64,000 nucleotides of DNA from Tsukamurella ocularis (GTDB taxonomy: Bacteria; Actinomycetota; Actinomycetes; Mycobacteriales; Mycobacteriaceae), in assembly GCF_024807615.1 (NCBI RefSeq), contig NZ_JANUCJ010000002.1, positions 496,001 through 560,000 of the forward strand. Direction: 5' to 3'. The notes under the pieces were generated by a model. That model saw only the letters and a program-made list of their open reading frames with translations. It ran no database searches and was not told the DNA's origin. Both the position numbers and the translations under genes were made by a program. Every line of letters begins with the position of its first letter. The stretch's first letter is position 1. Below, one piece after another: positions 29,187-52,297 of this stretch.

Positions 29187-29229
29187 GGATCCGTACCCTC
29201 ACTCCCTCACCGGGTGAGGGTACGGATCC
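29187..29229. terminator. Terminator hairpin 2, overlapping the end of the carboxylase gene
   Basis: A perfect 16-bp stem GGATCCGTACCCTCAC (29187-29202) with 29214-29229 and an 11-nt loop. The carboxylase stop codon (29207-29209) lies in the loop, so the left arm is non-coding and the right arm is coding. Confidence 0.75.
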
Positions 29230-36423: not shown

Positions 36424-37356
36424 ATGGCACTCGTCGAACCCGATTTCCCGTCCGCCAACGGCCGCGACACCGTCCACGCCTGGATCTACACGCCGGTCCG
36501 CGAGCCCCGCGCGATCGTGCAGGTGATCCACGGCCTGGGCGAGCACTCGCGCCGGTACCTGCGCCTCGTCACGACGCTGCTCGACGCCGGCTTCGTGGTG
36601 GCCGCCGAGGACCACGCGGGACACGGCGCGACGGCGATGGCCTCGGGCGTGTGGGGCGATGCAGGCGAGGACGCGGCGCACGTCCTCGTCACCGACGCCG
36701 CGGCGCTCCGCGCGAAGGTTCAGGAACTCCACCCGGGCCTGCCCTACGTCGCCTTCGGGCACTCGATGGGCTCGATGATCGCCCGCGGTCTCGCCACCGC
36801 GCAGCCCGACGGGATCGACGGCCTGGTCCTGTGCGGGATCGCCGCGCAGATCGCCGGGATCGACGGTGTCGTCGACCGCGCGGCGCTCGCGGCCGAACCC
36901 GATCAGGCCGGGCCCGCGCCGGCGCGCTACGTCGGAGAGCTGTTCGACGGCTTCGTCTCCCGGTTCGGCGCGGGAGCGGGCCCGACCGACTGGGTCGCGC
37001 GGGACGCAGACGTCGTGCGGGACCACGCGGTCGACCCGTTCAACAACTTCGGCGCTCCGATGTCGGCCCGGTTCCTGCGCGGCTTCATCGAGCTGTACGA
37101 CGCCGCGAACGGCGACGCCTTCTACGCCGCGCTCCGTGCGGAGACGCCCGTGCTGATTCTCGCGGGTGACCAGGACCCGGTCACCAACTACGGCGAAGGC
37201 GCGTACCACGTGGCCAACGCCCTCGTCGCCTCCGGACATCCCGACGTGCGGACCCGCGTCTACCCCGGCGTGCGGCACGAGGTGCACAACGAGCCCGAGA
37301 CCCGCGACGACGTGGCCGCCGAGCTCCTCGCCTTCGTCGAGCGCGTGATCGCCTGA
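36424..37356 (+). CDS. Monoacylglycerol-lipase-like alpha/beta hydrolase
   Basis: A 310-residue serine hydrolase of the lysophospholipase/monoacylglycerol lipase group. The oxyanion motif is VIHGLGEHSRRY (HGxGEH, about residue 38), the nucleophile is in AFGHSMGSMIA (Ser about 117), the acid in LAGDQDPVTNYG and the histidine in YPGVRHEVHNE. There is no signal peptide, so it acts in the cytoplasm. It could release fatty or hydroxy acids from esters for the adjacent CoA-ligase pathways. It is divergent from the MFS gene and shares its operator region. Confidence 0.85.
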   Translation: MALVEPDFPSANGRDTVHAWIYTPVREPRAIVQVIHGLGEHSRRYLRLVTTLLDAGFVVAAEDHAGHGATAMASGVWGDAGEDAAHVLVTDAAALRAKVQELHPGLPYVAFGHSMGSMIARGLATAQPDGIDGLVLCGIAAQIAGIDGVVDRAALAAEPDQAGPAPARYVGELFDGFVSRFGAGAGPTDWVARDADVVRDHAVDPFNNFGAPMSARFLRGFIELYDAANGDAFYAALRAETPVLILAGDQDPVTNYGEGAYHVANALVASGHPDVRTRVYPGVRHEVHNEPETRDDVAAELLAFVERVIA

Positions 37357-37410: not shown

Positions 37411-38928
37411 CTACCTCGCGCGCAGCTCCCGCTTGAGGATCTTGCCGGTGCCGCCCTTCGGCAGCTCGGCGAGCAGGTGGATCTCGCGCGGGTACTTGTA
37501 CGCCGCCAGGCGCTCCCGGCTGAACTCGGTGAGGCCCGCGGCGTCCGCACTCGCACCCGGACGCAGGACGACGAAGGCGACGACCTCCTCCCCCAGCCTG
37601 TCGTCGGGGCGGCCGACGACGGCGGCCTCGACGACCTCGGGGTGCGCGTAGAGCACCTCCTCGACCTCGCGGGGGTACACGTTGTAGCCGCCGCGGATCA
37701 CCAGGTCCTTCAGCCGGTCGACGATGAAGAAGTAGCCGTCCTCGTCGCGGTAGCCGAGGTCGCCCGTGTGCAACCAGCCGTTGCGCAGCGCCTCCGCAGT
37801 CGCCTCGGGACGCTTGTAGTACCCCTTCATGACATTGTGTCCACGGACCACGATCTCGCCGATGTTGTCCGCCCCGGGCGGCAACTCGGCACCGTCGAGG
37901 TCGACGGCCCGCATCTGGACACCCCAGATGGGCTTGCCGATCGAGAGGACCTTGCGCTGCTCGGCGCTGATGTTGAAGGTCGCGGTCGACGCGGTCTCCG
38001 AGAGCCCGTAGCCCTCGAGGATCGCCAGCCCCGGGAACTTCTCCTCGAAGGCGCTGATCACGCCGCCGGGGATCGACTCGCCTCCCGAGACGGCGGCGCG
38101 CATGCTGGAGACGTCGCGGCCGGCGAGGTCGACCCCGAGCAGCGCCACGTACATCGTGGGCACGCCGGAGAGCACCGTGACCCGGCGGCGCTCGATGACG
38201 TCGATCACCGCCTCCGCCTCGAACCGCGGCACCAGGGCCACCGAACCGCCGTAGCGGACCGCCGCGTTGAGCACGCTGGACAGGCCGAAGACGTGGAACA
38301 GCGGAAGGGCACCTAGTGCGACGTCGTCGTCGCGCATCCCGAACAGCTGCGGCGCGATCGTGCAGTTCATGTAGAGCTCGAAATGCGTGAGCTCAGCGCC
38401 CTTCGGCCGACCGGTGGTGCCGGAGGTGTACAGCAGCACGGCGGTGTCGTCGGAGCTCGTGGGGTGGATCTCCCCCGTGTCCGGCTCGGCCAGCAGCTCG
38501 GCGAACGGCGTCGCGCCCGACGGGGTCGGCGCGCCCAGCGGGACCACGACCACGTCGCCGACGCCCGCCTCCGCCGCGCCGACGAGCGCGGCCTCGGCGG
38601 AGAAGTCGGAGGCCACGAGCAGCTTCGCATCGCTGTCGCCGAGGTGGTAGCCGATCTCCGGCGCGGTGAACAGCGGGTTGAGCGGCACCATCGTCAGGCC
38701 CGCCTTGAGGATCCCGAAGTAGGCGACCACGAACTCCGGCAGGTTCGGCAGTTGGACGGCGACCTTGTCGCCGGGGACGAGGCCGCGGGCCAGCAGCGAG
38801 GCCGCGAGGCGCCCCGACTGCTCGTCGAGCTGGGAGTAACTGATCTCGCGATCACCGAAGAACAGCAGGGGCGCGTCGGGCGTCGACGATGCCGACTCGC
38901 GCAGCATCGTCGCCAGGTTGAAGGACAT
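37411..38928 (-). CDS. Long/medium-chain acyl-CoA ligase (FadD family), last gene of the catabolic operon
   Basis: A 505-residue ANL ligase. Motifs: LLYTSGTTGRPKGAELTH (about 160-177), EGYGLSETAST (about 303-313), WLHTGDLGYRDEDGYFFIVDRLKDLVIRGGYNVYP hinge (landmark HTGDLGY, DRLKD) and PKGGTGKILKREL with the catalytic Lys near the C-terminus. It is compact, without the extension of the other ligase in this island. Its start directly abuts the stop of the phosphotriesterase-like gene, so ligase and lactonase are made together. Confidence 0.9.
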   Translation of the reverse strand: MSFNLATMLRESASSTPDAPLLFFGDREISYSQLDEQSGRLAASLLARGLVPGDKVAVQLPNLPEFVVAYFGILKAGLTMVPLNPLFTAPEIGYHLGDSDAKLLVASDFSAEAALVGAAEAGVGDVVVVPLGAPTPSGATPFAELLAEPDTGEIHPTSSDDTAVLLYTSGTTGRPKGAELTHFELYMNCTIAPQLFGMRDDDVALGALPLFHVFGLSSVLNAAVRYGGSVALVPRFEAEAVIDVIERRRVTVLSGVPTMYVALLGVDLAGRDVSSMRAAVSGGESIPGGVISAFEEKFPGLAILEGYGLSETASTATFNISAEQRKVLSIGKPIWGVQMRAVDLDGAELPPGADNIGEIVVRGHNVMKGYYKRPEATAEALRNGWLHTGDLGYRDEDGYFFIVDRLKDLVIRGGYNVYPREVEEVLYAHPEVVEAAVVGRPDDRLGEEVVAFVVLRPGASADAAGLTEFSRERLAAYKYPREIHLLAELPKGGTGKILKRELRAR

Positions 38929-39912
38929 CTACGCCTCTCCGGTCAGCACGCGGCGCGGTACGTCCACGAGCATGGTGTCGATCTGGTCCTGGCTCACGCC
39001 GCGCTCAAGCACGTACGGGAAGACGTCGTCGAAGACGTGCGTGTAGTGCCACTGGAGCATGCCCGCCTTGACGTTCGGGTCGATCCAGTCGATGTAGCAG
39101 GAGGCGTCCTGGGACAGCACGATCTTCTCGGTGTAGCCACGGCGCACCATCTCGATGAGGGTGTCGTTGCGGGCCTCGAAGGTGGTCTCCAGGTTGATGC
39201 CGAACCGGTCGAAGCCCAGCGTGAAGCCGGCGTCGGCGAGCGCCGACAGGTGCTCGGCGTCGGTGGAGTCGCCGCTGTGCCCCAGCACGATCCGGCTCGG
39301 GTCGACCCCCTCCTCGTCGCACATCACCCGTTTCACCAGCAGACCGGTCTCCGAGCCCGGGTGCGTGTGCACGGTGATCGGCACGCCGGTGGCGTTGTGC
39401 GCCTTCGCGACCGCCCGCATCACCCGCTCGACGCCCTCGGTGAGGCCGTGGTGGTCGATCGCGCACTTGAGCATGCCGGCCTTGACCCCGGTCTCGCCGA
39501 TGCCCTCCGTGATGTCGCGGACGAACATGTCCGCCATCGGATCCGGGAAGTCGATCCCCGTCATCGCGGTCAGGGCGGGACCGCGATACATGAAGTAGCG
39601 CGGCAGGTCGCGATAGGTGTAGACGCCCGTCGCCGCGACGATCCGCACCGGCGTGCGCTCGGCGATCCGCTGGATCCGCGGGATGTACCGTCCGAGACCG
39701 ACCACCGTCGGGTCGACGATGGTGCGCACGCCGGCCTCGTACGCCTTCTGCAGCTGCGCGACGGCGTCGTCCACCCGGGCGTCCTCGTCGCCGAAGTCCT
39801 CCGGATAGTTCTGCTGGATGTCCGGAGTGAGCACGAAGACGTGTTCGTGCATGAGCGTGACGCCGAGATCGGCGGCGTCGACGTCTCCGGTGACGGTGTG
39901 GACGACTCCCAT
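38929..39912 (-). CDS. Phosphotriesterase-family metallohydrolase (lactonase-like)
   Basis: A 327-residue amidohydrolase-superfamily TIM barrel. The binuclear metal site is complete: His22 and His24 (MHEHVF), a lysine to be carbamylated (GMLKCAID, about 157), His in TVHTHPGSE (about 190), His in VLGHSGDS (about 218) and Asp in LSQDASC (about 275). Most natural members are lactonases acting on gamma- and delta-lactones or N-acyl-homoserine lactones; phosphotriester cleavage is promiscuous. Lying between acyl-CoA dehydrogenases and a CoA ligase, ring opening of a lactone to a hydroxy acid is the favoured role. ATG 39912 has AGTAGGA upstream. From memory M. tuberculosis php also neighbours a fadE. 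Confidence 0.87.
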   Translation of the reverse strand: MGVVHTVTGDVDAADLGVTLMHEHVFVLTPDIQQNYPEDFGDEDARVDDAVAQLQKAYEAGVRTIVDPTVVGLGRYIPRIQRIAERTPVRIVAATGVYTYRDLPRYFMYRGPALTAMTGIDFPDPMADMFVRDITEGIGETGVKAGMLKCAIDHHGLTEGVERVMRAVAKAHNATGVPITVHTHPGSETGLLVKRVMCDEEGVDPSRIVLGHSGDSTDAEHLSALADAGFTLGFDRFGINLETTFEARNDTLIEMVRRGYTEKIVLSQDASCYIDWIDPNVKAGMLQWHYTHVFDDVFPYVLERGVSQDQIDTMLVDVPRRVLTGEA

Positions 39913-39941: not shown

Positions 39942-41024
39942 TCAGGCGGGGAGGTCGATCAGGCCCGCGAGCGCGGCGCGGTGCCGCCCCGGGGTGCCGA
40001 GACCGATCTGGTCCGCCTTGGCGCGCTTGAGGTACAGGTGCACCGGCGCCTCCCAGGTCATGCCGATGCCGCCGTGCAGCTGCACCGCCTCCTCCGCCGC
40101 GCGCACAGCCAGGTCCGAGCAGTACGCGGCCGCGACGGCCACGGCGATCACGGTCTCCGGGTCCTCGGTCCCGAGCTCCGCCAGGGCCACCGTCGCCGAC
40201 CGCGCCACCGCGGCGGCGGATTCCGCGTCGGCGTAGAGCTCCGCCAGGCGGTGCTTGACGGCCTGGAAGCCGCCTACCACACGCCCGAACTGCTTGCGCT
40301 GCTTCAGGTACTCGACCGTCGTGGCGACGCACCATCGCGCCACCCCGGCCTGCTCCGCGGCGAGCAGCGCGGCCCCCGTGAGCAGGCCCGCGCGGACGGC
40401 GGCGACACCATCGGACGTGAGGACCGTGCCCCGGGTTCCGTCGAAGGTCACGTCCGCCACCTGCCGCGTCATGTCGAGCGACGACACCACCTCGATCCGC
40501 GCGTCGGCCGCCGGAACGGCCTGCAGGGCACCGTCGGAGTCGAGCACGAGCAGGATCTCCGCGCCGACCGCGCCGGCCACCGACCGGACGGTGCCGGAGA
40601 GGGCGCCGTCGGCGACGGAGACGGCCGGCGCCGTCCCGTGCGGGTCCACCGAGAACGGCACGACCAACGCGGCGATCCGCGCACCCTCGGCGAGCTGCCC
40701 GGCCAGGACCGGTGCGCCCGCCGCGACCGCGACCGACGCTGCGATCGCCGACGTGAGGAAGTCCCCCGCCGCGCAGGCGGAGCCGAGCTCCTCGGCGACC
40801 ACGCCCGCGACGGCGGCGCCCGCCCAGGCACCGCCCAGCTCCTCCGGGACGAGGAGGCCGGTGACGCCCATCTCCGCGAGCTCCGCCTGCAGGCCGGGGG
40901 CAGCGGCACCGTCGTAGGCGGCGATCAGGTCCGCCGGCGCGACCCGCCGGTCGACCAGGTCGCGGACCGCGGCCCGGAGGTCGTCCTCGATGTCGCTGCT
41001 CAGCAGCTGGGGGGTGAAGCTCAC
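39942..41024 (-). CDS. Acyl-CoA dehydrogenase, probable non-catalytic subunit of a heteromer
   Basis: A 360-residue ACAD-fold protein. N-terminal helical domain with MGVTGLLVPEELGGAWAG, a divergent beta domain (poor match to the usual TEP-x-x-GSD FAD/substrate motif) and a C-terminal domain with RKQFGRVVGGFQAVKHRLAELY and VQLHGGIGMTWEAPVHLYLKRA. The position where the catalytic glutamate would lie is not acidic, as in beta chains of the actinobacterial alpha2beta2 FadE enzymes. Its GTG start overlaps the stop of the next FadE gene by 4 bp, which fits a stoichiometric partner. Confidence 0.85.
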   Translation of the reverse strand: MSFTPQLLSSDIEDDLRAAVRDLVDRRVAPADLIAAYDGAAAPGLQAELAEMGVTGLLVPEELGGAWAGAAVAGVVAEELGSACAAGDFLTSAIAASVAVAAGAPVLAGQLAEGARIAALVVPFSVDPHGTAPAVSVADGALSGTVRSVAGAVGAEILLVLDSDGALQAVPAADARIEVVSSLDMTRQVADVTFDGTRGTVLTSDGVAAVRAGLLTGAALLAAEQAGVARWCVATTVEYLKQRKQFGRVVGGFQAVKHRLAELYADAESAAAVARSATVALAELGTEDPETVIAVAVAAAYCSDLAVRAAEEAVQLHGGIGMTWEAPVHLYLKRAKADQIGLGTPGRHRAALAGLIDLPA

Positions 41025-42208
41025 TTGGGCACGTCCTTCCACGGCAGGTCCTTGTCGACCCGGTGCTCCGGCGGAAGCCCCAGTACGCGCTCCGCCACGA
41101 TGTTCTTGAGGATCTCCGAGGTGCCGCCCTCGATGGAGTTGCCCTTGGCACGCAGGTACCGGTACCCGGCGTCGCGGCCGTAGAAGTCCACCCGGTCGGG
41201 GCGGACCATCGTCCAGTCGCCGTACCGCAGGCCGTCCTCGCCGAGCAGCTCCAGCTCGAGGCCGGAGAGCTTCTGGTTGAGCCGGGCGAAGGAGAGTTTC
41301 ATCGCCGCGCCCTCCGGGCCGGGCTGCCCCGAGGCGAGCTTCTGGCCCAGGCGCAGCGCGGTCACGCGGGCGACCTCGCTGTCCACCCACAGGCGGAGCA
41401 GATCGTCGTGCAGGTCCGGCGTGCGTAGCTCGGGCCGCTCGCGCCAGGTGTCGGCGACCACGCCGATCATGCCGTCCTCGCGCTGCGACGCCCGGCCGCC
41501 GATGGCGACCCGCTCATTGTTGAGCGTGGCGTTCGCGACCTGCCAGCCCTGTCCCACCGTGCCCAGGCGATGCGCGTCCGGGATGCGGACGCCCTCGAGG
41601 AAGACCTCGTTGAACTCCGCCTCGCCGGTGATCTGCCGCAGGGGCCGCACGTCGATGCCCGGGTCGGACATGTCGCACAGGAAATAGGTGAGGCCCTTGT
41701 GCTTCGGCAGGTCCGGGTCGGTGCGGGCGACGAGGATCGCCCACTGTGCGTTGTGCGCGCCGGAGGTCCACACCTTCTGCCCGGTGACGATCCAGTCATC
41801 GCCGTCGCGGACCGCGCGGGTCGCGAGGCCCGCGAGGTCGGAGCCCGCGCCGGGCTCACTGAACAACTGGCACCAGATCTCCTCGCCGGTCCACAGCGGC
41901 CGCAGGAAGCGGTCGATCTGGTCCTGCGTTCCGAAGGCCAGGATGGTCGGCGCCGCCATCCCGAGGCCGATCCCGTTGACATGACTGCGGTTGTCGGGCG
42001 CGCCGGCCGCCGCGAACCGGGCGTCCACGCCCTGCTGCAGCGATCGCGAGAGCCCCAGGCCGCCGCGCCCCTCGGGGTAGGCGACCCACGCCAGACCCGC
42101 GTCGTACCGGGCGCGGAGGAACTCGAGCGGATCCGTCGTGGCCGGCGGGTGCGCGGCGAGGAAGTCGTCGACCTTCCGGGCGAGTTCCTCCGGGCCCGGC
42201 GCCGTCAC
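41021..42208 (-). CDS. Acyl-CoA dehydrogenase, probable catalytic partner subunit
   Basis: A 395-residue ACAD. Seen: [39 protein letters not shown] (landmarks SEPGAGSD and GQKVWTS, the FAD/substrate strand), [11 protein letters not shown] and C-terminal [21 protein letters not shown], where the Glu of the EGGTSE segment is a good candidate base. Paired with the adjacent 360-residue FadE it would form an alpha2beta2 dehydrogenase, the type used in actinobacteria for branched or ring-bearing acyl-CoAs. GTG 42208 overlaps the stop of the upstream ACAD11-like gene. Confidence 0.88.
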
Positions 42209-43434
42209 TGCGCCTTCTTGGCGGCGACGCGCTTGAGCTCCGCCCGGGCCAGCGAGTTCTTGTGCACCTCGTCGGGGCCGTCGGCGAACCGCAGGGTGCG
42301 GATCCCGGCGTAGTACTCGGCGAGCGGGAAGTCCTGCGACAGTCCGCCGGCGCCGTGCGCCTGGATGGCCTTGTCGAGGATCCACTGCACCGTCTGCGGG
42401 GTGGCGATCTTGATCGCCTGGATCTCGGTGTGGGCGCCGCGGTTGCCCACGGTGTCCATCAGCCACGCGGTCTTGAGCACCAGCAGGCGCAGCTGCTCGA
42501 TCCGCACGCGCGACTCGGCGATCCAGTCGCGGATCACGCCCTGCTCCGACAACGGCTTGCCGAACGCGGTGCGGCCCGCCACCCGGTCACACATGAGCTC
42601 GACGGCCCGCTCCGCCACGCCGATCGAGCGCATGCAGTGGTGGATGCGGCCGGGCCCGAGGCGGGCCTGCGCGATGGCGAAACCGTCGCCCTCCTCGCCG
42701 ATCAGGTTGGCAGCGGGGACACGGACGTCGGTGAACCGCATTTCGGCGTGGCCGCCGTGGCTGTGGTCGTCATACCCGAAGACCTCCATGCCGCGCAGCA
42801 CCTCCAGGCCCGGGGTGTCCCGCGGCACGAGGATCTGCGACTGCTGGCGGTGGCGTTCGGCGTCGGGCGCCGTCTTGCCCATGACGATGAAGATCTTGCA
42901 GTTCGGGTTCATGGCGCCCGTGATCCACCACTTGCGGCCGTTGATCACGTAGTCGTCGCCGTCGCGGACGATCGACAGGCCGATGTTGGTGGCGTCGGAA
43001 CTGGCGACGTCGGGCTCCGTCATCGCGAAGGCGGAACGGATCTCGCCGTTCAGGAGCGGGGTCAGCCACTGCTCCTTCTGCTCGGCTGTGCCGAACTCGC
43101 TCAGCACCTCCATGTTCCCCGTGTCCGGGGCGGCGCAGTTGAACACCGCGGGCGCGAGGTGCAGGCTCCGACCGGAGATCTCGGCGAGGGGCGCGTACTG
43201 CAAGTTGGTCAGGCCCGCACCGTTCTCGCCGGGGAGGAAGAAGTTCCAGAAGCCGCGGCTACGGGCCTCGGCGCGTAGCTCGTGCAGCACCGGGGCGCTG
43301 TCCCAGGCCCACCGATTCTCCAGCGCGCCGAGCTGCTGCTGGAAGGTCTCCTCCGCCGGGTAGACGTGGCTGTCCATGAAGTCATTGACCTGTCCGATCA
43401 ACTCCGTGGTCTTGGCGTCGTACGCGAAATCCAT
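42205..43434 (-). CDS. ACAD11-like acyl-CoA dehydrogenase
   Basis: A 409-residue ACAD. As recalled, it shares distinctive strings with the dehydrogenase domain of human ACAD11: [47 protein letters not shown] and [16 protein letters not shown] near the C-terminus. The usual catalytic Glu (YEGT) is replaced by Asp (ADGP), a feature of this subfamily. ACAD10/11-type enzymes act on 4-hydroxyacyl-CoA after a kinase phosphorylates the 4-OH, eliminating phosphate to an enoyl-CoA. The kinase gene is immediately upstream (1 bp gap), as expected for two halves of the same enzyme. Confidence 0.9.
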
Positions 43435-43435
43435 G

Positions 43436-44452
43436 TCAATTCTCCTTCAGTGCGTCGAGTCCGGCGTCGAGCAGCGGATTCACTGCCTCCCCGGCCTCCG
43501 CGAAGCCCTCGCCCACGGTCTGGCCGTTGACGTAGCGGTAGTGGATGCCCTCGACGATGCCTGCGAGCTTGAAGCAGGAGAGGGCGATGTAGAAGCCGAA
43601 ATCCCCGAGTTCCCGGGAGGATCCGGCAGCGTAGCGATCGATGATCTGCTGCTCGTCGAGGAAGCCTGGCGCCTCGCTCACGTCGCTGACGGTGCCGGCG
43701 GAGATCTTCGCCAGGCGCCCGTAGACCACCATCAGGGCGAGGTCGGTGAGCGAGTCGCCGATGGTCGCGAGCTCCCAGTCGACGACCGCGGCGGGCTCGT
43801 CCTGCGGCGAGACCAGCACGTTGTCGAGGCGGTAGTCGCCGTGCACGATGCCGGGCACCGCGTCCGCGGGCACCCGGCCCTCGAGCGCGGTGAACAGCTC
43901 GTCGACCTTGGGCAGGTCGCGGGTGTGCGCCGCGGCGAACTGCTTGCGCCAGCGCTGCACCTGCCGGCCCAGGAAGCCCTCGGGGCGGCCGTAGTCGCCG
44001 AGCCCGACGCTCGCGGGATCGACGTGGTGCAGCTCGACGAGGGTGTCGACCAGCCGCTCGGAGATGGCGCGGGTGCGGTCGGCGCCGAGCGCCCCCAGCT
44101 CCGTCGCGCGGCGGTACGGCACGCCGTCGATCTCGCTCATCACGTAGAACGGCGCGCCGAGCACCTCGGGGTCGTCGCAGTAGGCGTACATCACCGGGAC
44201 CGGCACGGCGGTGCCGCCGAGCGCGGACATCATCCGGTACTCGCGGCCCATGTCGTGCGCCGACGGCAGGAGCTTGCCGACCGGTGGGCGGCGCAGGATC
44301 CAGGACGAGGCACCGTCGGAGATGCGGTACGTGAGGTTGGACTTGCCGCCCGCGATCAGGACGGCCGCGAGCTGCGAGCCCGCGCCCTGCACGTGCTGCG
44401 GGAGCCACGTGCCGAGGACGTCGAGATCGAGGCCCGGGTGCTGCTCCGCCAT
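43436..44452 (-). CDS. APH-family phosphotransferase (ACAD10/11 kinase-domain type)
   Basis: A 338-residue kinase of the aminoglycoside-phosphotransferase fold. Seen: a nucleotide-binding [23 protein letters not shown] (landmark GGKSNLTY), [13 protein letters not shown], the catalytic loop [13 protein letters not shown] (Asp about 206, Asn about 211) and the metal-binding [11 protein letters not shown]. In human ACAD11 and in the LvaA kinase of the Pseudomonas levulinate pathway this fold phosphorylates the 4-hydroxyl of 4-hydroxyacyl-CoAs. The start overlaps the MaoC stop (ATGA) and the stop is 1 bp from the ACAD11-like gene. Antibiotic phosphorylation is an unlikely alternative in this context. 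Confidence 0.87.
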
Positions 44453-44904
44453 CAGAAGACCACCACGGAGACGGTCTCGGCGACGCAAGCGGGCCGGTCG
44501 CCGCCCTCGCGCTCGATGGTCACGCGCGCGACGACCTGCTGACCGCCGCCGCCCGGGGTGACCGAGACCAGCTCGACCCCTGCCCGCACGCGCGAGCCGA
44601 CGGGCACCGGTGAGGGGAAGCGAACCTTGTTGCTGCCGTAGTTGACGCCCATCTTCGTGCGCTCGACGGTGTAGATCTGCCACACCAGCATCGGGATGAG
44701 GGACAGGGTCAGGTAGCCGTGGGCGATCGTCGAGCCGAACGGGCCGGCCTTTGCCTTGTCCGGGTCCACGTGGATCCACTGGTGGTCCCCGGTCGCCTCG
44801 GCGAACAGGTCGATCCGCTTCTGGTCGATCTCGACCCAGTCGCTGTAGCCGAGGTGCTCCCCCACGGCCGCCTGCAGTTCCTCGAGTCCGTTGAGTACCC
44901 GCAT
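44452..44904 (-). CDS. MaoC-family (R)-specific enoyl-CoA hydratase
   Basis: A 150-residue hot-dog-fold protein. The hydratase-2 motif is complete: FAEATGDHQWIHVDPDKAK with the catalytic Asp/His pair (about residues 36-41), followed by GPFGSTIAHGYLTLSLIP. It would hydrate the enoyl-CoA made by the dehydrogenases to a 3-hydroxyacyl-CoA. Within the operon it lies between FabG-type SDR (28 bp gap) and kinase (4-bp overlap). Confidence 0.92.
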   Translation of the reverse strand: MRVLNGLEELQAAVGEHLGYSDWVEIDQKRIDLFAEATGDHQWIHVDPDKAKAGPFGSTIAHGYLTLSLIPMLVWQIYTVERTKMGVNYGSNKVRFPSPVPVGSRVRAGVELVSVTPGGGGQQVVARVTIEREGGDRPACVAETVSVVVF

Positions 44905-44932
44905 GTTTCTCGTCTCCTCGTCCTGTTCGGAC

Positions 44933-45685
44933 CTAGTCCTTGGGCCCGCCGGCCACGTACAGCACCTGGCCCGAGACGAAGCCCGCGCCCTCGCTGGCGA
45001 AGAAGCTGGCGGCGTGCGCGATGTCCGCGGGCTCGCCGACGCGCTGCACGGGGATCTCCTTCGCGGAGAAGGCCTTGAAGTCCTCGAAGGGCACGCCGAT
45101 GCGCTCGGCGGTCGCGGCGGTCATGTCGGTCGCGATGAAGCCGGGGGCGATCGCGTTCGCGGTCACGCCGAACTTGCCGAGCTCGATGGCGAGGGTCTTG
45201 GTGAGGCCCTGCATGCCGGCCTTCGCCGCGGAGTAGTTCGCCTGGCCGCGGTTGCCCAGCGCCGAGGTCGAGGACAGGTTGACGATGCGACCCCAGCCCT
45301 CTTTGGTCTGATACTTCTGCACCTCGCGCGACATGAGGAAGGCGCCGCGCAGGTGGACGGCCATGACCTGGTCCCAGTCGGAGACGGACATCTTGAACAG
45401 CAGGTTGTCGCGGAGGATCCCGGCGTTGTTGATCAGGATCGTGGGGGCGCCGAGTTCGTCGGCGACGCGGGTGACCGCGGCCGTGACCTTCTCCTCGTCG
45501 GAGACGTCGACGCCGACGCCGATGGCGCGGCCGCCGGCGGCGGTGATCTGCTCGGCGACCGCCTGGCAGGCGGCCTCGTCGAGGTCGAGGACGGCGACGG
45601 CGTGCCCGTCGGAGGCGAGGCGGCGGGCCACCTCGGCGCCGATGCCGCGGGCGGCTCCGGTCACGATGGCGATGCGCTGGGTCAT
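44933..45685 (-). CDS. FabG-type 3-oxoacyl reductase / 3-hydroxyacyl-CoA dehydrogenase (SDR)
   Basis: A 250-residue classical SDR. Cofactor loop IVTGAARGIGAEVARRL, NNAGILRDNLLFKMS, and the Ser-Tyr-Lys triad in NLSSTSALGNRGQANYSAAKAG. The C-terminus VSGQVLYVAGGP is FabG-like. Downstream of MaoC chemistry it would interconvert 3-hydroxy- and 3-oxoacyl-CoA; with an (R)-specific MaoC the stereochemistry fits. It is 11 bp from the HAD gene on the same strand. Confidence 0.9.
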   Translation of the reverse strand: MTQRIAIVTGAARGIGAEVARRLASDGHAVAVLDLDEAACQAVAEQITAAGGRAIGVGVDVSDEEKVTAAVTRVADELGAPTILINNAGILRDNLLFKMSVSDWDQVMAVHLRGAFLMSREVQKYQTKEGWGRIVNLSSTSALGNRGQANYSAAKAGMQGLTKTLAIELGKFGVTANAIAPGFIATDMTAATAERIGVPFEDFKAFSAKEIPVQRVGEPADIAHAASFFASEGAGFVSGQVLYVAGGPKD

Positions 45686-45696
45686 GGTGTTCTCCT

Positions 45697-46368
45697 TCAG
45701 GGGTGGATGGGGGTGTCGGCCAGTGCGGGAACGAGTTCCCGCAGCGCCGTCCGGGTGGTGCCGGCGTCGGTGTGGTGGATCGCGCGGATGCCCAGGGCCG
45801 CCGCGCCCGCGACGTTGGGAGTCGCGTCGTCGATGAAAGCGGCACGCTCGGGCGGCACGCCGAGCCGGTCGAGGGCGAGCCGGAAGATGGCGGGGTCGGG
45901 CTTGCGCAGCCCCACCTCCTCCGAGATGATCACGGGCGCGAAGAGGGCCGCGAGACGCTCACGGGGGTAGAGGTTCCCGCCACCCCAGCTGTTGGAGACG
46001 ATCGCGACGGGCACGCCCGCGGCGCGCAGGTCGGCGGCCAGCGCCCACATCGCCGGATCCTCCTGGATCCGAGCGAACATGCGACGCAACACCCCATCGG
46101 GGTTCACCGGCACGCCCGAGCGGGTGCGCAGCGCCGTGGCGAAGGCGGCGTCGAACTCCGGCTCGGGCAGCTCGCCGGTCTCGAGCCGGTGAATGGGGCT
46201 GCCCGCGTGGGCATCCCGGCCGAGCCAGGCCTTGAGGGTCGCGGTGAAGCTCGCCGGCTCGATGCCCTCGTCCGCGATCCACGCCTCGATGCTGTGCCGC
46301 ATCGGCTCGGTGAGGACGCCGCCGAAGTCGAACAGGACGGCGTCCACCTCACGGCTCGCGGCGGTCAC
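45697..46368 (-). CDS. HAD-family hydrolase, ACAD10 N-terminal-domain-like
   Basis: A 223-residue HAD protein with a helical cap. Motif 1 is LFDFGGVLTEP: the nucleophile Asp is present but the usual second Asp (DxD) is Gly, as in the HAD domain of human ACAD10 (recalled FDMGGVL). Motif 2 is AIVSNSWGG, motif 3 the Lys in GLRKPDPAIF, and motif 4 AAFIDDATPNV. It may dephosphorylate a 4-phospho intermediate or act as a binding protein. GTG 46368 overlaps the stop of the oxidoreductase gene by 4 bp. Confidence 0.85.
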   Translation of the reverse strand: MTAASREVDAVLFDFGGVLTEPMRHSIEAWIADEGIEPASFTATLKAWLGRDAHAGSPIHRLETGELPEPEFDAAFATALRTRSGVPVNPDGVLRRMFARIQEDPAMWALAADLRAAGVPVAIVSNSWGGGNLYPRERLAALFAPVIISEEVGLRKPDPAIFRLALDRLGVPPERAAFIDDATPNVAGAAALGIRAIHHTDAGTTRTALRELVPALADTPIHP

Positions 46369-47354
46369 TGCGCCGCCTGGTAGACCACGCGGCCCACCGT
46401 GGTGCCGTCGCCGAGGCGCTGCAGGCCGTCGGGGACGGCGTCGAAGGCGAGGCGCTCGCTCACGAGCGGATTCACCAGGCCCTGGTCGGCGAGGGCGGTC
46501 AGCTCCGCGTGACACTGCTGCACCGCGGCCGGGTCGTAGGCGTTGTACAGGCCCCAGTGCAGTCCGACGATCGAGTAGTTCTTGATCAGCGCGTGGTTCA
46601 GGGCGGCCTCCTGAATGGTGCCACCGGCGAAGCCCACGACGAGGATCCGGCCCTCGAAGGCGATGCACTTGGTGGAGCGCTTGTAGGTGTCGCCGCCGAC
46701 CGGGTCGTAGATCACGTCGGCGCCGCGTCCGCCGGTCTCCGCCTTGACCACCTCGACGAAGTCGTCAGTGCGCCGGTCGACGACGACATCGGCGCCCAGG
46801 GCGCGCGCGACCTCGGCCTTGTCCGCTCCGCCGACGACGCCGATCACCCTGGCGCCCGCGGCCTTACCGAGCTGGATCGCGGCGCTGCCGACGCCGCCGG
46901 CGGCGGCGTGCACGAGGAGCGTCTCGCCGGCCTGTAGGTGCGCACGACGATGCAGCCCGAACCATCCGGTCTGGTAGCCGATGTACAGCGACGAGGCCTG
47001 GGCGTCGTCGAGCGACGCCGGCGCCGGGAACGTCTGCGCCGCAGTGAGAAGGGCGTACTCGGCGAATCCCCCCGACGGGAGCGCCGAGCCGCCGAGAACC
47101 CGCTGACCCACGGCGAAGCCGTCGACGCCCTCGCCGACGGCGACGACCTCGCCACACAGCTCGACGCCGGGGGTGAAGGGCAGGTCGGGCTTGACCTGGT
47201 AGAGGCCGCGGCACATGAGCACGTCGGGGAAGTTCGCCGCCGCGGCGAGCGTGCGGACGGTGAGCTGTCCGGGACCCGGATCCGGCTTCGGGGCGTCGAC
47301 CTCGCGGAGCACCGCGAGCGGCTCCCCCAGTTCCTGTACCTGCCAGGCCCTCAT
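46365..47354 (-). CDS. NADPH:quinone-oxidoreductase-type MDR protein
   Basis: A 329-residue medium-chain reductase without zinc ligands. GroES-like N-terminus (FPDVLMCRGLYQVKPDLPFTPGVELCGEV), then a Rossmann domain with VHAAAGGVGSAAIQLGKAAGA, and a GRILVVGFAGGTIQEAALNHALIKN segment. Such proteins reduce enones, quinones or 2-enoyl-CoAs with NADPH. In this pathway it could reduce an off-path enoyl or enone. ATG 47354 has GGAGAG 7 nt upstream and overlaps the SDR stop (ATGA). Confidence 0.87.
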   Translation of the reverse strand: MRAWQVQELGEPLAVLREVDAPKPDPGPGQLTVRTLAAAANFPDVLMCRGLYQVKPDLPFTPGVELCGEVVAVGEGVDGFAVGQRVLGGSALPSGGFAEYALLTAAQTFPAPASLDDAQASSLYIGYQTGWFGLHRRAHLQAGETLLVHAAAGGVGSAAIQLGKAAGARVIGVVGGADKAEVARALGADVVVDRRTDDFVEVVKAETGGRGADVIYDPVGGDTYKRSTKCIAFEGRILVVGFAGGTIQEAALNHALIKNYSIVGLHWGLYNAYDPAAVQQCHAELTALADQGLVNPLVSERLAFDAVPDGLQRLGDGTTVGRVVYQAAQ

Positions 47355-48157
47355 CGGCCGCTCTCCTTCGTCTCGAGTCGCTGCTGCAGTTTGTTCATGC
47401 CGTGCAGCCACTTGTCGGTCGCCGTCGCGCGGACGGCGTAGTAGCCCGCCACCTCGGGGTGCGGGAGGATCAGGAACTCATCGCCTGCGAGGGCGTCAAC
47501 GGCGAGCGTCGCGACCTGCTCGGGCGTGAGGGCGGAGTCGCGGCTGAGCAGCTCCTCCAGTTCGCCGGAGCGCTCGAGCATGCCGGTCTTCACGCCCTGC
47601 GGGCAGATCGCCTGGACCACCACGCCGCGATGGCGGTACGTCGTGGAGAGCCACTCGGCGAAGGCGACGGCGGCGTGCTTGGTCACCGAGTAGGCGGGGG
47701 CGCCGAGCATGGTGAGCAGCCCTGCCGCGGAGGCGGTGACCACGAACCTGCCGCCGCCACTCGCGGCCCACTCGGGCACGAGCAGCCGGGCGGCACGCAC
47801 GTGGGCCATCACGTTGACGTCCAGCGACAGCGCCCAGTCGGACTCCGGGGTCTCGAGGCCGCGCCCGCGGTCGATGCCGGCGTTGGCGTACCAGGCGTCG
47901 ATGGCGCCGAGCTCGCGGCGCGCCGTCTCGACGAGGGCGGTGACGCCCTCCTCAGAGGCGGCGTCGCCGGGCGCGACGTACGCGGAGCCGCCGGCAGCGG
48001 CGATCTCGGCGACGGTCCGTGCGGCACCGTCGGCGTCGAGGTCCGCGACGACGACGCGAGCCCCGCGCGCGGCGAGCTCGCGGGCGAGTGCCGCGCCGAT
48101 ACCGTTGCCCGCACCGGTCACGACGACGCCCTTGTCCTTCGGGTCGAAGCCTGCCAC
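47351..48157 (-). CDS. Short-chain dehydrogenase/reductase
   Basis: A 268-residue SDR. Cofactor loop VVVTGAGNGIGAALARELA with VADLDADGA (Asp after beta-2, so NAD preferred), YANAGIDRG instead of the usual NNAG, catalytic Ser-Tyr-Lys in VVTASAAGLLTMLGAPAYSVTKHA. The C-terminal extension (VDALAGDEFLILPHPEVAGYY) resembles SDRs of lipid and steroid clusters. Its substrate is unknown. It is 3 bp from the previous SDR and overlaps the next gene by 4 bp. Confidence 0.87.
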   Translation of the reverse strand: MAGFDPKDKGVVVTGAGNGIGAALARELAARGARVVVADLDADGAARTVAEIAAAGGSAYVAPGDAASEEGVTALVETARRELGAIDAWYANAGIDRGRGLETPESDWALSLDVNVMAHVRAARLLVPEWAASGGGRFVVTASAAGLLTMLGAPAYSVTKHAAVAFAEWLSTTYRHRGVVVQAICPQGVKTGMLERSGELEELLSRDSALTPEQVATLAVDALAGDEFLILPHPEVAGYYAVRATATDKWLHGMNKLQQRLETKESGR

Positions 48158-48160
48158 GGG

Positions 48161-48913
48161 CTACACCCCGCCGGTCAGCAGGACGCCACCGTCGACGGTG
48201 AGCGTCTGGCCGGTCATCCAGGCGGCGTCGTCGGAGAGCAGGAAGGCGACGACCGAGCCGATGTCGTCGGGCACGCCGAGCCGCTTGAGCGGGTACGCGG
48301 CGGAGACCTGCTCCTCGCGGCCCTCGTACAGGGCGGTGGCGAACCTGGTCTTGACGACGGCGGGCGCGACGGCGTTCACCCGGATGTCCGGGCCGAGCTC
48401 GACGGCGAGTTCCTCGGTGAGGTGGATGACCGCGGCCTTGGAGACGCCGTAGAAGGCGATGCCGGGCGCAGGGCGCAGGCCGGCGACGGAACCGACGTTG
48501 ACGATGGCGCCGCCGTGCTCCTTCTGCCATGCGGCGTACACCTTCTTGGTCCAGGACAGGGTGGAGAGCACGTTGACCTCGAAGATCTTGCGCGCGGCCG
48601 CCATGTCGATCTCCATGAGCGGGCCGTAGACCGGGTTGATGCCGGTGTTGTTGACGAAGAAGTCGGCGCTGCCGAAGGTCTCGATCGCGGTGGCGATCAC
48701 GTGGTCCTGGTGCGCCTCGTCGTCGCCCGAACCCGCCACGGCCACGGCCACCTCGGGGCCGCCCAGCCCGGCGACCGCGGCGTCGAGCGCCTCCTGCTTG
48801 CGGGCCGTGATGACGACCTTCGCACCGTCGGCCACCAGCCTCTGGGCGATGGCCAGGCCGATGCCGCGGCTCGCTCCCGTGACGATCGCGGTCTTCCCGG
48901 CGAATCGGGTCAT
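48161..48913 (-). CDS. Short-chain dehydrogenase/reductase, first gene of the catabolic operon
   Basis: A 250-residue SDR. TAIVTGASRGIGLAIAQRL, then ITARKQEAL (Arg after beta-2, so NADP is possible), NNTGINPVYGPL, and Ser-Tyr-Lys in VGSVAGLRPAPGIAFYGVSKAA. The C-terminus is MTGQTLTVDGG. ATG 48913 is chosen because GGAAGG lies 10 nt upstream; the GTG at 48922 is too close to it. The palindromic operator is centred 35 bp before the start, where it would overlap the promoter. Confidence 0.87.
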   Translation of the reverse strand: MTRFAGKTAIVTGASRGIGLAIAQRLVADGAKVVITARKQEALDAAVAGLGGPEVAVAVAGSGDDEAHQDHVIATAIETFGSADFFVNNTGINPVYGPLMEIDMAAARKIFEVNVLSTLSWTKKVYAAWQKEHGGAIVNVGSVAGLRPAPGIAFYGVSKAAVIHLTEELAVELGPDIRVNAVAPAVVKTRFATALYEGREEQVSAAYPLKRLGVPDDIGSVVAFLLSDDAAWMTGQTLTVDGGVLLTGGV

Positions 48914-48939
48914 GCTCCACACACCTTCCGTTCAAACTG

Positions 48940-49119: not shown

Positions 49120-50337
49120 TCAGCTGAGCCGCTCGATGATCATCGCCATGCCCTGGCCGCCGCCGACGCACATGGTCTCGAGGCCGAACTGCTTGTCGTG
49201 CCACTGCAGCGAGTTGATGAGCGTACTGGTGATGCGCGCGCCCGTCATGCCGAAGGGGTGGCCCACGGCGATGGCGCCACCGTTGACGTTGACCTTGTCG
49301 GCGTCGATGCCGAGGTCGCGCACCGACGGGATAACCTGCGCCGCGAAGGCCTCATTGACCTCCATGAGGTCGATATCGCCGATCGACAGGCCGGCGCGCT
49401 GCAGCGCCTGCTTCGACGCCTCGACGGGGCCGAGGCCCATGATCTCGGGCGACAGGCCCGTGACGCCGGTGGAGACGATGCGCGCGAGCGGCGTCAGGCC
49501 GAGCGCCTTGGCCTTCTCGTCGGACATGATCACCACGGCGGCCGCGCCGTCGTTGAGCGGACAGCAGTTGCCGGCCGTGACGGTGCCGTCCGGGCGGAAG
49601 ACCGGCTTGAGCCCGGCGATGCCCTCGTACGTGACGCCGGCGCGCGGACCGTCGTCCGTCGAGACGACCGTGCCGTCGGCGAGCGTGACCGGCGTGATGT
49701 CCTTGGCCCAGAAGCCCGAGGCGATGGCGGCCTCGGCGCGGTTCTGGCTGCGCACGCCCCACTCGTCCTGGTCCTGGCGGCTGACGTTCTTGAACTGGGC
49801 GACATTCTCGGCGGTCTGACCCATCGCGATGTAGACGTCCGGCAGGACGCCCGCCTCGCGCGGGTCGACCCAGGTCTGGCCGCCGCCCGCGAAGGTCGCG
49901 GTGCGCGCCTCGGCGTCGGCGAAGAGAGCATTCTTGGTGTCAGGCAGGCCATCGGCGTTGCCCTTGATGTAGCGGCTCACGGTCTCGACGCCGCCGGAGA
50001 TGAAGACGTCGCCCTCCCCCGCCTTGATCGCATGGAAGGCCATGCGCGTGGTCTGCAGGCTCGAGCTGCAGTAGCGATTGACGGTGACGCCGGGCAGGTG
50101 ATCGAGGCCGGCCTCGACGGCAACGACGCGGGCGATGTTGAAGCCGGACTCGCCCGCGGGCTGCCCACAGCCGAACATCAGGTCGTCGATCTCGCGGGGG
50201 TCGAGCCCGGGCACGTTTTCCAGGGCGGCGCGCACCATCTGGACCGAGAGGTCGTCCGGACGGACGTCCTTGAGCGAGCCCTTCGCTGCACGCCCGATGG
50301 GCGACCGGGCGGTGGAGACGATGACGGCTTCGGGCAT
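49120..50337 (-). CDS. Acetyl-CoA C-acyltransferase (thiolase, FadA family)
   Basis: A 405-residue thiolase. The nucleophilic cysteine is in VNRYCSSSLQTTRMA (about residue 92), the His in NVNGGAIAVGHPFGMTGAR and the second Cys in ETMCVGGGQGMAM. It cleaves 3-oxoacyl-CoA to acetyl- or propionyl-CoA, the last step of beta-oxidation. ATG 50337 has GGAGGT 6 nt upstream. It is divergent from tetR with an operator in between, so it should be co-regulated with the catabolic operon, which has no thiolase of its own. It reads like the mycobacterial FadA3 branch. Confidence 0.93.
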   Translation of the reverse strand: MPEAVIVSTARSPIGRAAKGSLKDVRPDDLSVQMVRAALENVPGLDPREIDDLMFGCGQPAGESGFNIARVVAVEAGLDHLPGVTVNRYCSSSLQTTRMAFHAIKAGEGDVFISGGVETVSRYIKGNADGLPDTKNALFADAEARTATFAGGGQTWVDPREAGVLPDVYIAMGQTAENVAQFKNVSRQDQDEWGVRSQNRAEAAIASGFWAKDITPVTLADGTVVSTDDGPRAGVTYEGIAGLKPVFRPDGTVTAGNCCPLNDGAAAVVIMSDEKAKALGLTPLARIVSTGVTGLSPEIMGLGPVEASKQALQRAGLSIGDIDLMEVNEAFAAQVIPSVRDLGIDADKVNVNGGAIAVGHPFGMTGARITSTLINSLQWHDKQFGLETMCVGGGQGMAMIIERLS

Positions 50338-50504: not shown

Positions 50505-51119
50505 ATGACCGAACCCGAAGCGCCATCCCGCGCGGACGCCACCCGCGCGCGGCTGCTGTCGGCCGCCGCGGCGGCCTTCGCCGAACGCGGCTTCCACGGC
50601 ACCACCACCCGCGACATCGCCTCGGCCGCCGGCATGAGCCCCGCCGCCGTGTACGTGCACTACAAGTCCAAAGAACAATTGCTGCACCAGCTCTCGCGCG
50701 TCGGACACCAACGGATCATCGACGCGATCGACGCCGTCGACGACCACGCTGACACCCCCGCTCGGCGGCTCACCGCCGCGATGCGGGCGTTCGCGACGCA
50801 CCACGCGTCGTCGCACACCAGTGTCCGCGTGGTCAACTACGAACTGGACGCGCTCACCGAGGAACACCGCGCCGAGATCGGCGGCCTCCGCCGCGAGATC
50901 ACCCGCCGGCTGCGCGCGATCGTCGACGCCGGCGTCGCGGACGGCTCCTTCGACACGCCCGACCCGCGGATGGCCACCATCGCCGTCCTCTCCAGCGGCA
51001 TCGACATCGGCCGCTGGTACCACGACGGCGGCGAGATCACCCCCGACCGCATCGGCGACTTCTACGCCGACCTCGCCCTGCGCACCGTTGGGGCGAACAC
51101 CACCGACACCCCGAAGTAG
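50505..51119 (+). CDS. TetR-family regulator, probable repressor of the TAAGC-N4-GCTTA regulon
   Basis: A 204-residue TetR protein. The DNA-binding domain spans about residues 9-56 (ARLLSAAAAAFAERGFHGTTTRDIASAAGMSPAAVYVHYKSKEQLL as landmarks TTTRDIA and SPAAVYVHYKSK). The C-terminal domain looks like KstR2/FadR-type acyl-CoA-sensing regulators (ASSHTSVRVVNYELDALTEEHRAEI). ATG 50505 follows GGAGGG by 5 nt. It is divergent from the thiolase with a perfect operator between, and is followed by a FadE gene 20 bp on, so autoregulation is expected. Confidence 0.9.
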   Translation: MTEPEAPSRADATRARLLSAAAAAFAERGFHGTTTRDIASAAGMSPAAVYVHYKSKEQLLHQLSRVGHQRIIDAIDAVDDHADTPARRLTAAMRAFATHHASSHTSVRVVNYELDALTEEHRAEIGGLRREITRRLRAIVDAGVADGSFDTPDPRMATIAVLSSGIDIGRWYHDGGEITPDRIGDFYADLALRTVGANTTDTPK

Positions 51120-51139: not shown

Positions 51140-52297
51140 ATGCGTCGCACCGTCTACACCGCCGATCACGAGGCCTTCCGCGAGACCCTCCGCGCCTTCA
51201 TCGAGGCGGAGGTCGTGCCGCACTACGACGAGTGGTACGCCAACGGCATCGTGCCGAAGGACTTCTACCCCAAGCTCGGCGAACTCGGCGTCTTCGGCAT
51301 CGAGGTGCCCGAGGAGTACGGCGGCGCGGGCATCGAGTCCTTCAAGTACCAGGCCGTGATCAGCGAGGAACTTGGCCGCGCCGGCGTCTCCTTCGGCGGC
51401 TCGAGCGTGCACATCGCGCTGTGCCTGCCCTACCTGACCGGCCTCGCCACCGACGAGCAGAAGCAACGCTGGCTGCCCGGCATGGCCGCGGGCGAGCTGA
51501 TGTTCGCCATCGCCATGACCGAACCCGGCACCGGCTCCGACCTCGCGGGCATGAAGACCACCGCCAAGCTCTCCGCGGACGGCACCCACTACGTCCTCAA
51601 CGGCGCCAAGACCTTCATCACCGGCGGCGTGAACGCCGACCGCGTGATCGTCTGCGCGCGCACCGCACCGTCGACCCCCGAGGACCGTCGCCACGGCATC
51701 TCACTCTTCGTCGTGGACACCGCGCTCGAGGGCTACTCGGTCGGCCGCAAGCTCGACAAGATCGGCCTACGCACCTCCGATACCGCCGAGCTCTCGTTCA
51801 CCGACGTGAAGGTGCCCGTCGCGGACCTGCTCGGCGAGGAGAACAAGGGCTTCTCCTACCTCGGCCAGAACCTGCCGCAGGAGCGCCTGTCGATCGCCGT
51901 CGGCGCGTACTCGCAGGCCTCCGCCGCCGTGCGCTTCGCGCAGGCGTACACGCAGGACCGCAACATCTTCGGCAAGTCCGTCGCCTCGTTCCAGAACACC
52001 AAGTTCGAGCTCGCCGCGTGCAAGGCGAAGGTCGACGCCATGGAGTCCAGCGTCGACCGCGGCCTCGAGCTGCACGACGCGGGCCAGCTGACCGCCGCCG
52101 ACGCCGCCTCGCTCAAGCTGTTCTGCACCGAGGCCGCCTCCGACGTGATCGACCGCTGCCTGCAGCTGCACGGCGGCTACGGCTACATCAACGAGTACCC
52201 CATCGCCCGGCTCTACGCCGACAACCGCGTCAACCGCATCTACGGCGGCACGTCCGAGGTCATGAAGACCATCATCGCCAAGGACATGGGCCTGTAG
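51140..52297 (+). CDS. Acyl-CoA dehydrogenase (FadE family)
   Basis: A 385-residue homomeric-type ACAD. TEPGTGSDLAGMKT and FITGGVNADRVIVCART form the FAD/substrate strands; QDRNIFGKSVASFQNTKFELA and LQLHGGYGYINEYPIARLYADNRVNRIYGGTSEVMKTIIAKDMGL (landmarks HGGYGY and YGGTSEVM) form the C-terminal domain. The canonical YEGT Glu is replaced here (IYGGTSE), which suggests the base lies elsewhere, as in isovaleryl-CoA- or long-chain-type enzymes. GAGGAG precedes the ATG. It is in one operon with tetR. Confidence 0.92.
   Translation: MRRTVYTADHEAFRETLRAFIEAEVVPHYDEWYANGIVPKDFYPKLGELGVFGIEVPEEYGGAGIESFKYQAVISEELGRAGVSFGGSSVHIALCLPYLTGLATDEQKQRWLPGMAAGELMFAIAMTEPGTGSDLAGMKTTAKLSADGTHYVLNGAKTFITGGVNADRVIVCARTAPSTPEDRRHGISLFVVDTALEGYSVGRKLDKIGLRTSDTAELSFTDVKVPVADLLGEENKGFSYLGQNLPQERLSIAVGAYSQASAAVRFAQAYTQDRNIFGKSVASFQNTKFELAACKAKVDAMESSVDRGLELHDAGQLTAADAASLKLFCTEAASDVIDRCLQLHGGYGYINEYPIARLYADNRVNRIYGGTSEVMKTIIAKDMGL

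Follow-up and report, generated by a model that had tools for sequence, protein, structure and literature searches.

In the 64,000-nucleotide stretch of Tsukamurella ocularis DNA analysed here (contig NZ_JANUCJ010000002.1, positions 496,001 to 560,000; the whole stretch is called the window), a run of genes on the minus strand includes a HAD-family protein, a kinase of the aminoglycoside phosphotransferase (APH) fold and an acyl-CoA dehydrogenase (ACAD). In mammals, these parts are joined in ACAD10 (HAD-kinase-ACAD), and the last two of them in ACAD11 (PMC11342911, PMC12440821; statements drawn from PMC articles refer throughout to excerpts of those articles). The operon is probably a route by which γ-lactones and/or 4-hydroxy (or 4-oxo) acids would enter β-oxidation, and the HAD protein would be a dedicated partner of the kinase.

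The run goes from the thiolase gene through two short-chain dehydrogenase/reductase genes (SDR1, SDR2), a medium-chain dehydrogenase/reductase (MDR) gene and the HAD, FabG, MaoC, kinase, ACAD, FadE a, FadE b and phosphotriesterase-like lactonase (PLL) genes to an acyl-CoA ligase gene (Table 1). Its junctions are tight and several genes overlap by 1-4 bases. Only 1 bp separates the kinase stop from the ACAD start, the HAD gene has at its GTG start a 4-base overlap with the stop of the quinone-oxidoreductase-like gene upstream, and the kinase ATG overlaps the MaoC TGA by 1 base. A preliminary description, made from the sequence, had placed the HAD, kinase and ACAD reading frames on one strand with MaoC and FabG genes between the first two, and the reading frames, motifs and profile matches agree with it. 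The extent given there, 42205..46368, is right for the three genes and too short for the run, which reaches beyond the HAD gene to the thiolase on one side and to the ligase on the other; lactonase and ligase had gone unmentioned. In the host genome (4.3 Mb, 9 contigs), the HAD, the kinase and the ACAD have one match each of their own kind (E-value cut-offs 1e-10, 1e-20 and 1e-110), and HAD and kinase are found together in 16/16 genomes of the genus, the present one and 15 others. Hence, the grouping is more than chance.

Comparison with proteins of known structure supports the assignment of the dehydrogenase to the LvaC/ACAD10-11 type. Mouse ACAD11 (467.7 and 465.4 bits), human ACAD11 (457.2 bits) and 4hr3 (451.4 bits) fill the first four places among its PDB matches, and the next one is an ordinary ACAD at 149.6 bits. 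In the PDB alignment, R258, H266, R269 and D385 correspond to R626, H634, R637 and D753 of ACAD11; the printed rows run one residue below the numbering of the paper, and the base mutant 8v3v has Asn at that place. In a model of ACAD11, the first three residues bind the 4-phosphate, and replacing them by Ala or Leu disrupts the ACAD step most strongly, while D753 serves as catalytic base (PMC12440821). The equivalents are identical in all 45 ACAD10-type proteins aligned from the window and the fetched loci, which are not all independent since about a dozen come from the window and its own genus. The score gap and the four ACAD10/11-specific residues rule out an ordinary ACAD.

The kinase is likewise supported, by score gaps and diagnostic residues, as belonging to the LvaA/ACAD10-11 type, and it would phosphorylate the 4-hydroxyl group of 4-hydroxyacyl-CoA. 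The best PDB matches are 9o56 (220.3 bits), 3dxp (219.7 bits) and mouse ACAD11 (193.2 and 189.5 bits), followed by an entry at 55.1 bits. Identity is 34% to the kinase stretch of mouse ACAD11, against 15-23% to a control set of seven further APH-like genes from this genome. The catalytic D206 and N211 (equivalent to D220 and N225) are kept in 69/69 related kinases and are not specific, as the seven control genes have the Asp in 7/7 and the Asn in 6/7. More telling are two Arg residues, R163, equivalent to the CoA-contacting R176 of ACAD11, and R70, next to the Glu of αC (numbered R86 in the paper, two residues off the present count). These two markers are diagnostic only as a pair. The pair is present in 69/69 related kinases as well as in ACAD11, 3dxp and 9o56, and in 0/7 control genes (one Arg alone occurs in three of them, the first in L004 and the second in L005 and L006); 9fsg has the first Arg only. 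The preliminary description had named beforehand, as a test, whether the kinase goes with drug-resistance or sugar kinases. Scores and residues decide in its favour; an aminoglycoside-resistance kinase was rejected on the PDB score gap and on the APH(3') model NF033068, which gives 40.4 bits against a cut-off of 205.

HAD and kinase genes are strongly linked where the HADs are close, and the link weakens as they become more distant. In a sample of 150 genomes of the order, the HAD occurs in 23 (E ≤ 1e-20), the ACAD in 133 (1e-110) and the kinase in 136 (1e-50). The HAD gene lies less than 5 kb from an ACAD10-type ACAD gene in 16 of the 23; four others show neither such an ACAD nor a kinase in the fetched flanks. 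Consecutive HAD, kinase and ACAD genes on one strand are found in eight loci from five genera, seven from the order sample (L061, L062, L063, L065, L066, L067, L068) and one from a search among relatives (L079, from a different genus of the same family). With FabG and MaoC genes inserted, this order is also seen in the window, in eight named Tsukamurella loci, in two further loci of the genus (L083, L084) and in L089 (T. tyrosinosolvens) and L060. Across the phylum, the HAD was found at 1e-22 in 58/396 genomes, giving 65 match rows. Two of these are the window itself and G023 (locus L075), and the 63 outside the order, some of them near contig ends, were examined. Among the 40 best-scoring, a kinase gene lies within 3 kb in 27, only an ACAD gene within 5 kb in 3, and neither in 10; the 23 weaker ones give 6, 1 and 16 (kinase E ≤ 1e-10), so that a kinase is near in 33 and an ACAD only in 4. 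The first 40 display several gene orders: kinase-HAD (19), ACAD-kinase-HAD (4, and once more with the kinase reversed) and HAD-ACAD-kinase (3, two with the ACAD reversed). Therefore, the HAD-kinase association has survived rearrangement. In view of the recurrence in order and phylum genomes, chance adjacency of the HAD gene was rejected. No in-frame HAD-kinase, HAD-ACAD or kinase-ACAD fusion was found in the loci scanned (L047 up to L129, and the window). Distances between kinases and between their HADs are correlated (r = 0.76, n = 40; reached in 0/5000 permutations), a figure that cannot separate shared ancestry from co-adaptation. Taken with the score gaps and the diagnostic residues, HAD-kinase-ACAD synteny in other genera and families argues for the unfused ACAD10-type system that had been proposed.

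Some loci have unusual settings. A megaplasmid copy of the module is carried by Rhodococcus opacus plasmid pRop44186_a (L088, 9345-16104) in the order SDR-HAD-FabG-MaoC-kinase, followed by NAD(P) transhydrogenase genes. In T. tyrosinosolvens, the whole operon (L089) is on a 55-kb record labelled plasmid (NZ_LR134470.1, 'plasmid 28'), which may be a mislabelled piece of chromosome; in other genomes of the genus, the operon is mostly on large contigs. In L090 and L076/L077, the HAD gene is beside an ACAD10-type ACAD gene and the fetched stretch contains no kinase match; G025 and G054 have the kinase gene at another place (L144/L145), near FabG- and SDR2-like genes. Two mycobacterial loci, too, have an SDR1-like gene (83-85% identity) upstream of kinase-ACAD.

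As to the HAD protein itself, motif I reads D-x-G-G-V (once D-x-A) in 77/77 aligned sequences, 12 of which are from the window or its own genus; all retain the nucleophile and none has the second Asp. In 23 weaker HADs, D-x-G or D-x-A was found by pattern in 17, and reading the other six by eye gave D-x-G five times and D-F-F once. None of these 23 has the second Asp. In human ACAD10, also, only the first Asp of motif I is kept (PMC11342911). Loss of the second Asp thus appears common to the bacterial HAD family and to the human HAD domain, whose motif is taken here from its description, and the window HAD would correspond to, and be homologous with, that domain. The absence of the second Asp is no proof of inactivity. 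The nucleophile Asp, the Ser/Thr of motif II, the Lys and the DD of motif IV are kept in 77/77, as expected if the HAD were an active phosphatase that clears stalled 4-phosphoacyl-CoA or a by-product of the kinase (metabolite repair). E. coli YihX, which has a D-L-G motif I, is among the better PDB matches. It has been described as a specific α-D-glucose-1-phosphate hydrolase (PMC4251788). We nevertheless hold such a repair role to be rather unlikely, in view of the second Asp missing from every HAD examined and of the human HAD-kinase part, which is reported to have negligible activity as a phosphatase of 4-phosphohexanoyl-CoA (PMC11342911, where the data are not shown). In ACAD10, the HAD restrains the kinase (PMC11342911, 2024). 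As a separate gene linked by synteny, the bacterial HAD is more probably a modulator of kinase output than a bulk phosphatase.

The lactonase and the ligase suggest what the operon would consume. The best PDB match of the lactonase is 4if2 (362.9 bits), followed by the SsoPox-type Sulfolobus PLLs (about 225-239 bits, with 4g2d first at 238.6), and phosphotriesterase variants score about 133-143 bits. By these scores, it appears closer to PLLs than to phosphotriesterases; the entries compared are presumably lactonases. In an alignment with SsoPox read by eye, the PLL metal ligands (HxH, Lys, His, His, Asp) are conserved, as is the Tyr typical of lactonases. Catabolism of γ-caprolactone is said to have been described by Barbey in 2012. 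None of Y97, H22, R223, K137 and C258 was found in the excerpts of PMC3781021. Use of γ-caprolactone by Rhodococcus erythropolis needs the qsd operon, with the PLL QsdA and the ligase QsdC, and the lactone induces this operon (PMC6476934). Gene neighbourhoods point the same way. L075 has lactonase (53%), ligase (45%), kinase (34%) and ACAD (59%) genes plus a HAD gene; L147 has FabG-MaoC-kinase-ACAD-FadEa-FadEb, with lactonase and ligase following on the opposite strand; L146 has lactonase, ligase, SDR and ACAD, with no kinase seen. Of the eight named Tsukamurella loci, seven have both the lactonase and the FadE pair, and six an adjacent ligase. Within the order sample, the lactonase is less than 10 kb from an ACAD or kinase in at least 6 of 55 lactonase-bearing genomes (G000, G023, G078, G123, G139, G174), by distances read by eye among the ACAD and kinase matches listed. 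Chance would give about 0.3 genomes, roughly estimated from genome size. The lactonase link is therefore enriched and far from general.

The case for a pathway is built on gene content, order, residues and recurrence, and each of its reactions is a prediction from them. The PLL would open a γ-lactone to a 4-hydroxy acid, which the ligase would convert into 4-hydroxyacyl-CoA. By homology and residues, the kinase would then phosphorylate the 4-hydroxyl to yield 4-phosphoacyl-CoA, from which the ACAD10/11-type ACAD, with its FAD, would eliminate phosphate to give 2-enoyl-CoA. MaoC would hydrate the latter to 3-hydroxyacyl-CoA, an SDR would produce 3-oxoacyl-CoA, and the thiolase would carry out thiolysis. 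FadE b is probably the partner of FadE a, and the pair would serve later rounds of β-oxidation. Alternatively, the SDR may admit 4-oxo acids, as LvaD of the levulinate pathway reportedly does. More tentatively, and with clearly less confidence, we envisage that across Actinomycetota this DxG-type HAD may be a dedicated trans-acting controller of 4-hydroxyacyl-CoA kinases, the two acting as a HAD:kinase pair, that ACAD10 may be the fused descendant of a HAD-kinase-ACAD operon, and that the Tsukamurella set, fed by the lactonase, may form a complete γ-lactone pathway via 4-phosphoacyl-CoA that could be the missing step of rhodococcal γ-caprolactone use.

The type of pathway is already known from Lva and ACAD10/11, and unfused kinase and ACAD are known from Pseudomonas. 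Kinase and ACAD are of the same types as in the mammalian enzymes, with the same diagnostic residues as ACAD11. ACAD10, compared by description, shares the HAD motif I without second Asp and the order HAD, kinase, ACAD; in contrast, the window has three separate genes in a bacterial operon, with MaoC and FabG between HAD and kinase. The lva operon of Pseudomonas putida (LvaA kinase, LvaC ACAD, LvaE ligase), also compared by description, has in common with the window unfused kinase and ACAD, a CoA ligase and 4-phosphoacyl-CoA chemistry. In lva, the small LvaB works with LvaA, and LvaD is an SDR. The window adds HAD, lactonase, MaoC, thiolase and the FadE pair, and the HAD-like domain of ACAD10 has no homologue in lva (PMC12440821). 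With the qsd operon (QsdA lactonase, QsdC ligase, QsdD major facilitator superfamily (MFS) transporter, QsdR), again compared by description, the window shares a PLL gene adjoining an acyl-CoA ligase gene, with MFS transporter and TetR genes nearby, whereas no kinase or ACAD is named for qsd in the excerpts of PMC6476934 and PMC4640858. In the CC-licensed (Creative Commons) PMC literature, as far as its excerpts go, no report was found of an LvaA-type kinase with a separate bacterial HAD gene as its recurring partner, of a qsd route that includes a kinase-ACAD step, or of coupling of kinase-ACAD to a lactonase. A free-standing HAD gene paired with the kinase in many actinobacterial lineages makes the role of the ACAD10 HAD domain easier to study. 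Actinobacteria may use γ-lactones such as flavours and γ-caprolactone, in which the 4-hydroxyl stands in the way of normal β-oxidation, in the manner that the link to lactonase and ligase suggests.

Several observations weigh against this picture. The best NCBIfam match of the window HAD is TIGR02247 (epoxide hydrolase N-terminal domain-like HAD family), at 86.1 bits, under the curated cut-off of 125.4; the model matches 61/61 HADs scanned at E ≤ 1e-10, and we take it to cover ACAD10. In a tree of 75 kinase rows, the window kinase is not grouped with mouse ACAD11 to the exclusion of 9o56, and the placement of ACAD11 is unsure because L003 and L002 have very long branches; a check placed the L003 row in the correct reading frame. 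The R. opacus megaplasmid copy has no annotated ACAD beside the kinase, and a 37-codon ACAD-like fragment directly follows it. Three HAD-bearing genomes of the order have neither kinase nor ACAD at the cut-offs used, and outside the order 26/63 HAD loci have neither nearby. Three Gordonia and two mycobacterial kinase-ACAD loci have no HAD gene in the fetched flanks, some of which are short, so the HAD is not essential. On the lactone side, calorimetry detected no binding of γ-caprolactone to the repressor QsdR (PMC4640858), at variance with an electrophoretic mobility shift assay (PMC6476934). In 49/55 lactonase-bearing genomes of the order, no listed ACAD or kinase lies within 10 kb. L054 has no adjacent ligase, and in L048 (Tsukamurella asaccharolytica) FadE a and b, lactonase and adjacent ligase are all missing after the ACAD. 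The latter strain is a natural comparison for the lactone hypothesis.

The three order genomes with neither kinase nor ACAD at those cut-offs (G049, G030, G033; loci L080, L081, L082) carry a D-x-G HAD, which may have another role there.

The 49 genomes and L048, which has kinase-ACAD without lactonase, would fit lactonase and ligase degrading the quorum signal acyl-homoserine lactone (AHL) beside an unrelated kinase-ACAD pair. This we judge unlikely: opened AHL lactones would give no 4-hydroxy fatty acyl chain, and lactonase and ligase stand beside kinase and/or ACAD again in L075, L146 and L147. Rhodococcus QsdA/QsdC have been described as an AHL-degrading operon (PMC6262395), but γ-caprolactone is a QsdA substrate, and its effect on expression exceeds that of AHL 40 times for qsdA and 60 times for qsdC (PMC6476934, PMC4640858). 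L048 bears also on the idea that the true substrate, instead of being a linear 4-hydroxy acid, is a lactone or hydroxy acid that is cyclic or comes from a steroid. FadE b is indeed closest to the steroid enzyme IpdE2, and the TetR regulator is weakly similar to KstR2 (65 bits); since neither match comes near family level and L048 lacks the FadE pair, we regard this as quite improbable. Finally, that the HAD gene is an incidental passenger, as its absence from the Gordonia and mycobacterial loci and the 26 unlinked loci might suggest, is very hard to reconcile with a kinase within 3 kb in 33/63 loci and in several gene orders, when chance would give fewer than 1/63 by a rough estimate.

The features of the region are collected in Table 1. 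FadE a was searched as 41021-42202, and the lactonase as 38929-39894, i.e., without its first six residues. TetR and one further ACAD gene diverge from the run.

Table 1. Genes of the predicted operon and its surroundings (window coordinates).
Feature	Position	Strand	Evidence and remarks
HAD protein, 223 aa	45697..46368	-	Pfam Hydrolase (HAD) 2.3e-17; motif FDFGGVL; putative counterpart of ACAD10 HAD domain
APH-fold kinase, LvaA/ACAD10-11 type, 338 aa	43436..44452	-	Pfam APH 1.6e-47; motifs HGDYRLDN, VVDWE; predicted 4-hydroxyacyl-CoA 4-kinase
ACAD, LvaC/ACAD10-11 type, 409 aa	42205..43434	-	Pfam Acyl-CoA_dh_1 1.9e-37; motif FADGPDEVH
MaoC-type hydratase, predicted 2-enoyl-CoA hydratase	44452..44904	-	PF01575 2.6e-29
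FabG-type SDR, predicted 3-hydroxyacyl-CoA dehydrogenase (or 4-oxoacyl-CoA reductase)	44933..45685	-	Profile matches
FadE a, conventional ACAD (N, middle and C domains present)	41021..42208	-	Domain search
FadE b, IpdE2-like ACAD, no middle domain detected	39942..41024	-	IpdE2 model 135.7 bits, cut-off 450
PLL, QsdA-like, 327 aa from ATG at 39912	38929..39912	-	PF02126 3.7e-85; predicted γ-lactone hydrolase
Acyl-CoA ligase, predicted QsdC/LvaE role	37411..38928	-	PF00501 9.2e-95; NF004837 488.3 bits, cut-off 476
NADPH:quinone-oxidoreductase-like MDR	46365..47354	-	Profile matches (query was the longer reading frame to 47411)
SDR2	47351..48157	-	
SDR1	48161..48922	-	
Thiolase	49120..50337	-	
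TetR regulator, divergent	50505..51119	+	
Further ACAD, divergent side	51140..52297	+	
MFS transporter, possible qsdD analogue	34864..36249	-	Beyond the α/β hydrolase gene
α/β hydrolase	36424..37356	+	Between MFS transporter and ligase

The PDB regulators closest to the TetR protein give no pointer to a specific lactone sensor, and no entry labelled QsdR is among the best 60 of 121. Further along the window, a single protein of 1058 aa (29207-32383) combines biotin carboxylase, biotinyl and carboxyl transferase domains; its neighbours are an AMP-binding protein (32380-34170) and another TetR regulator (34197-34817).

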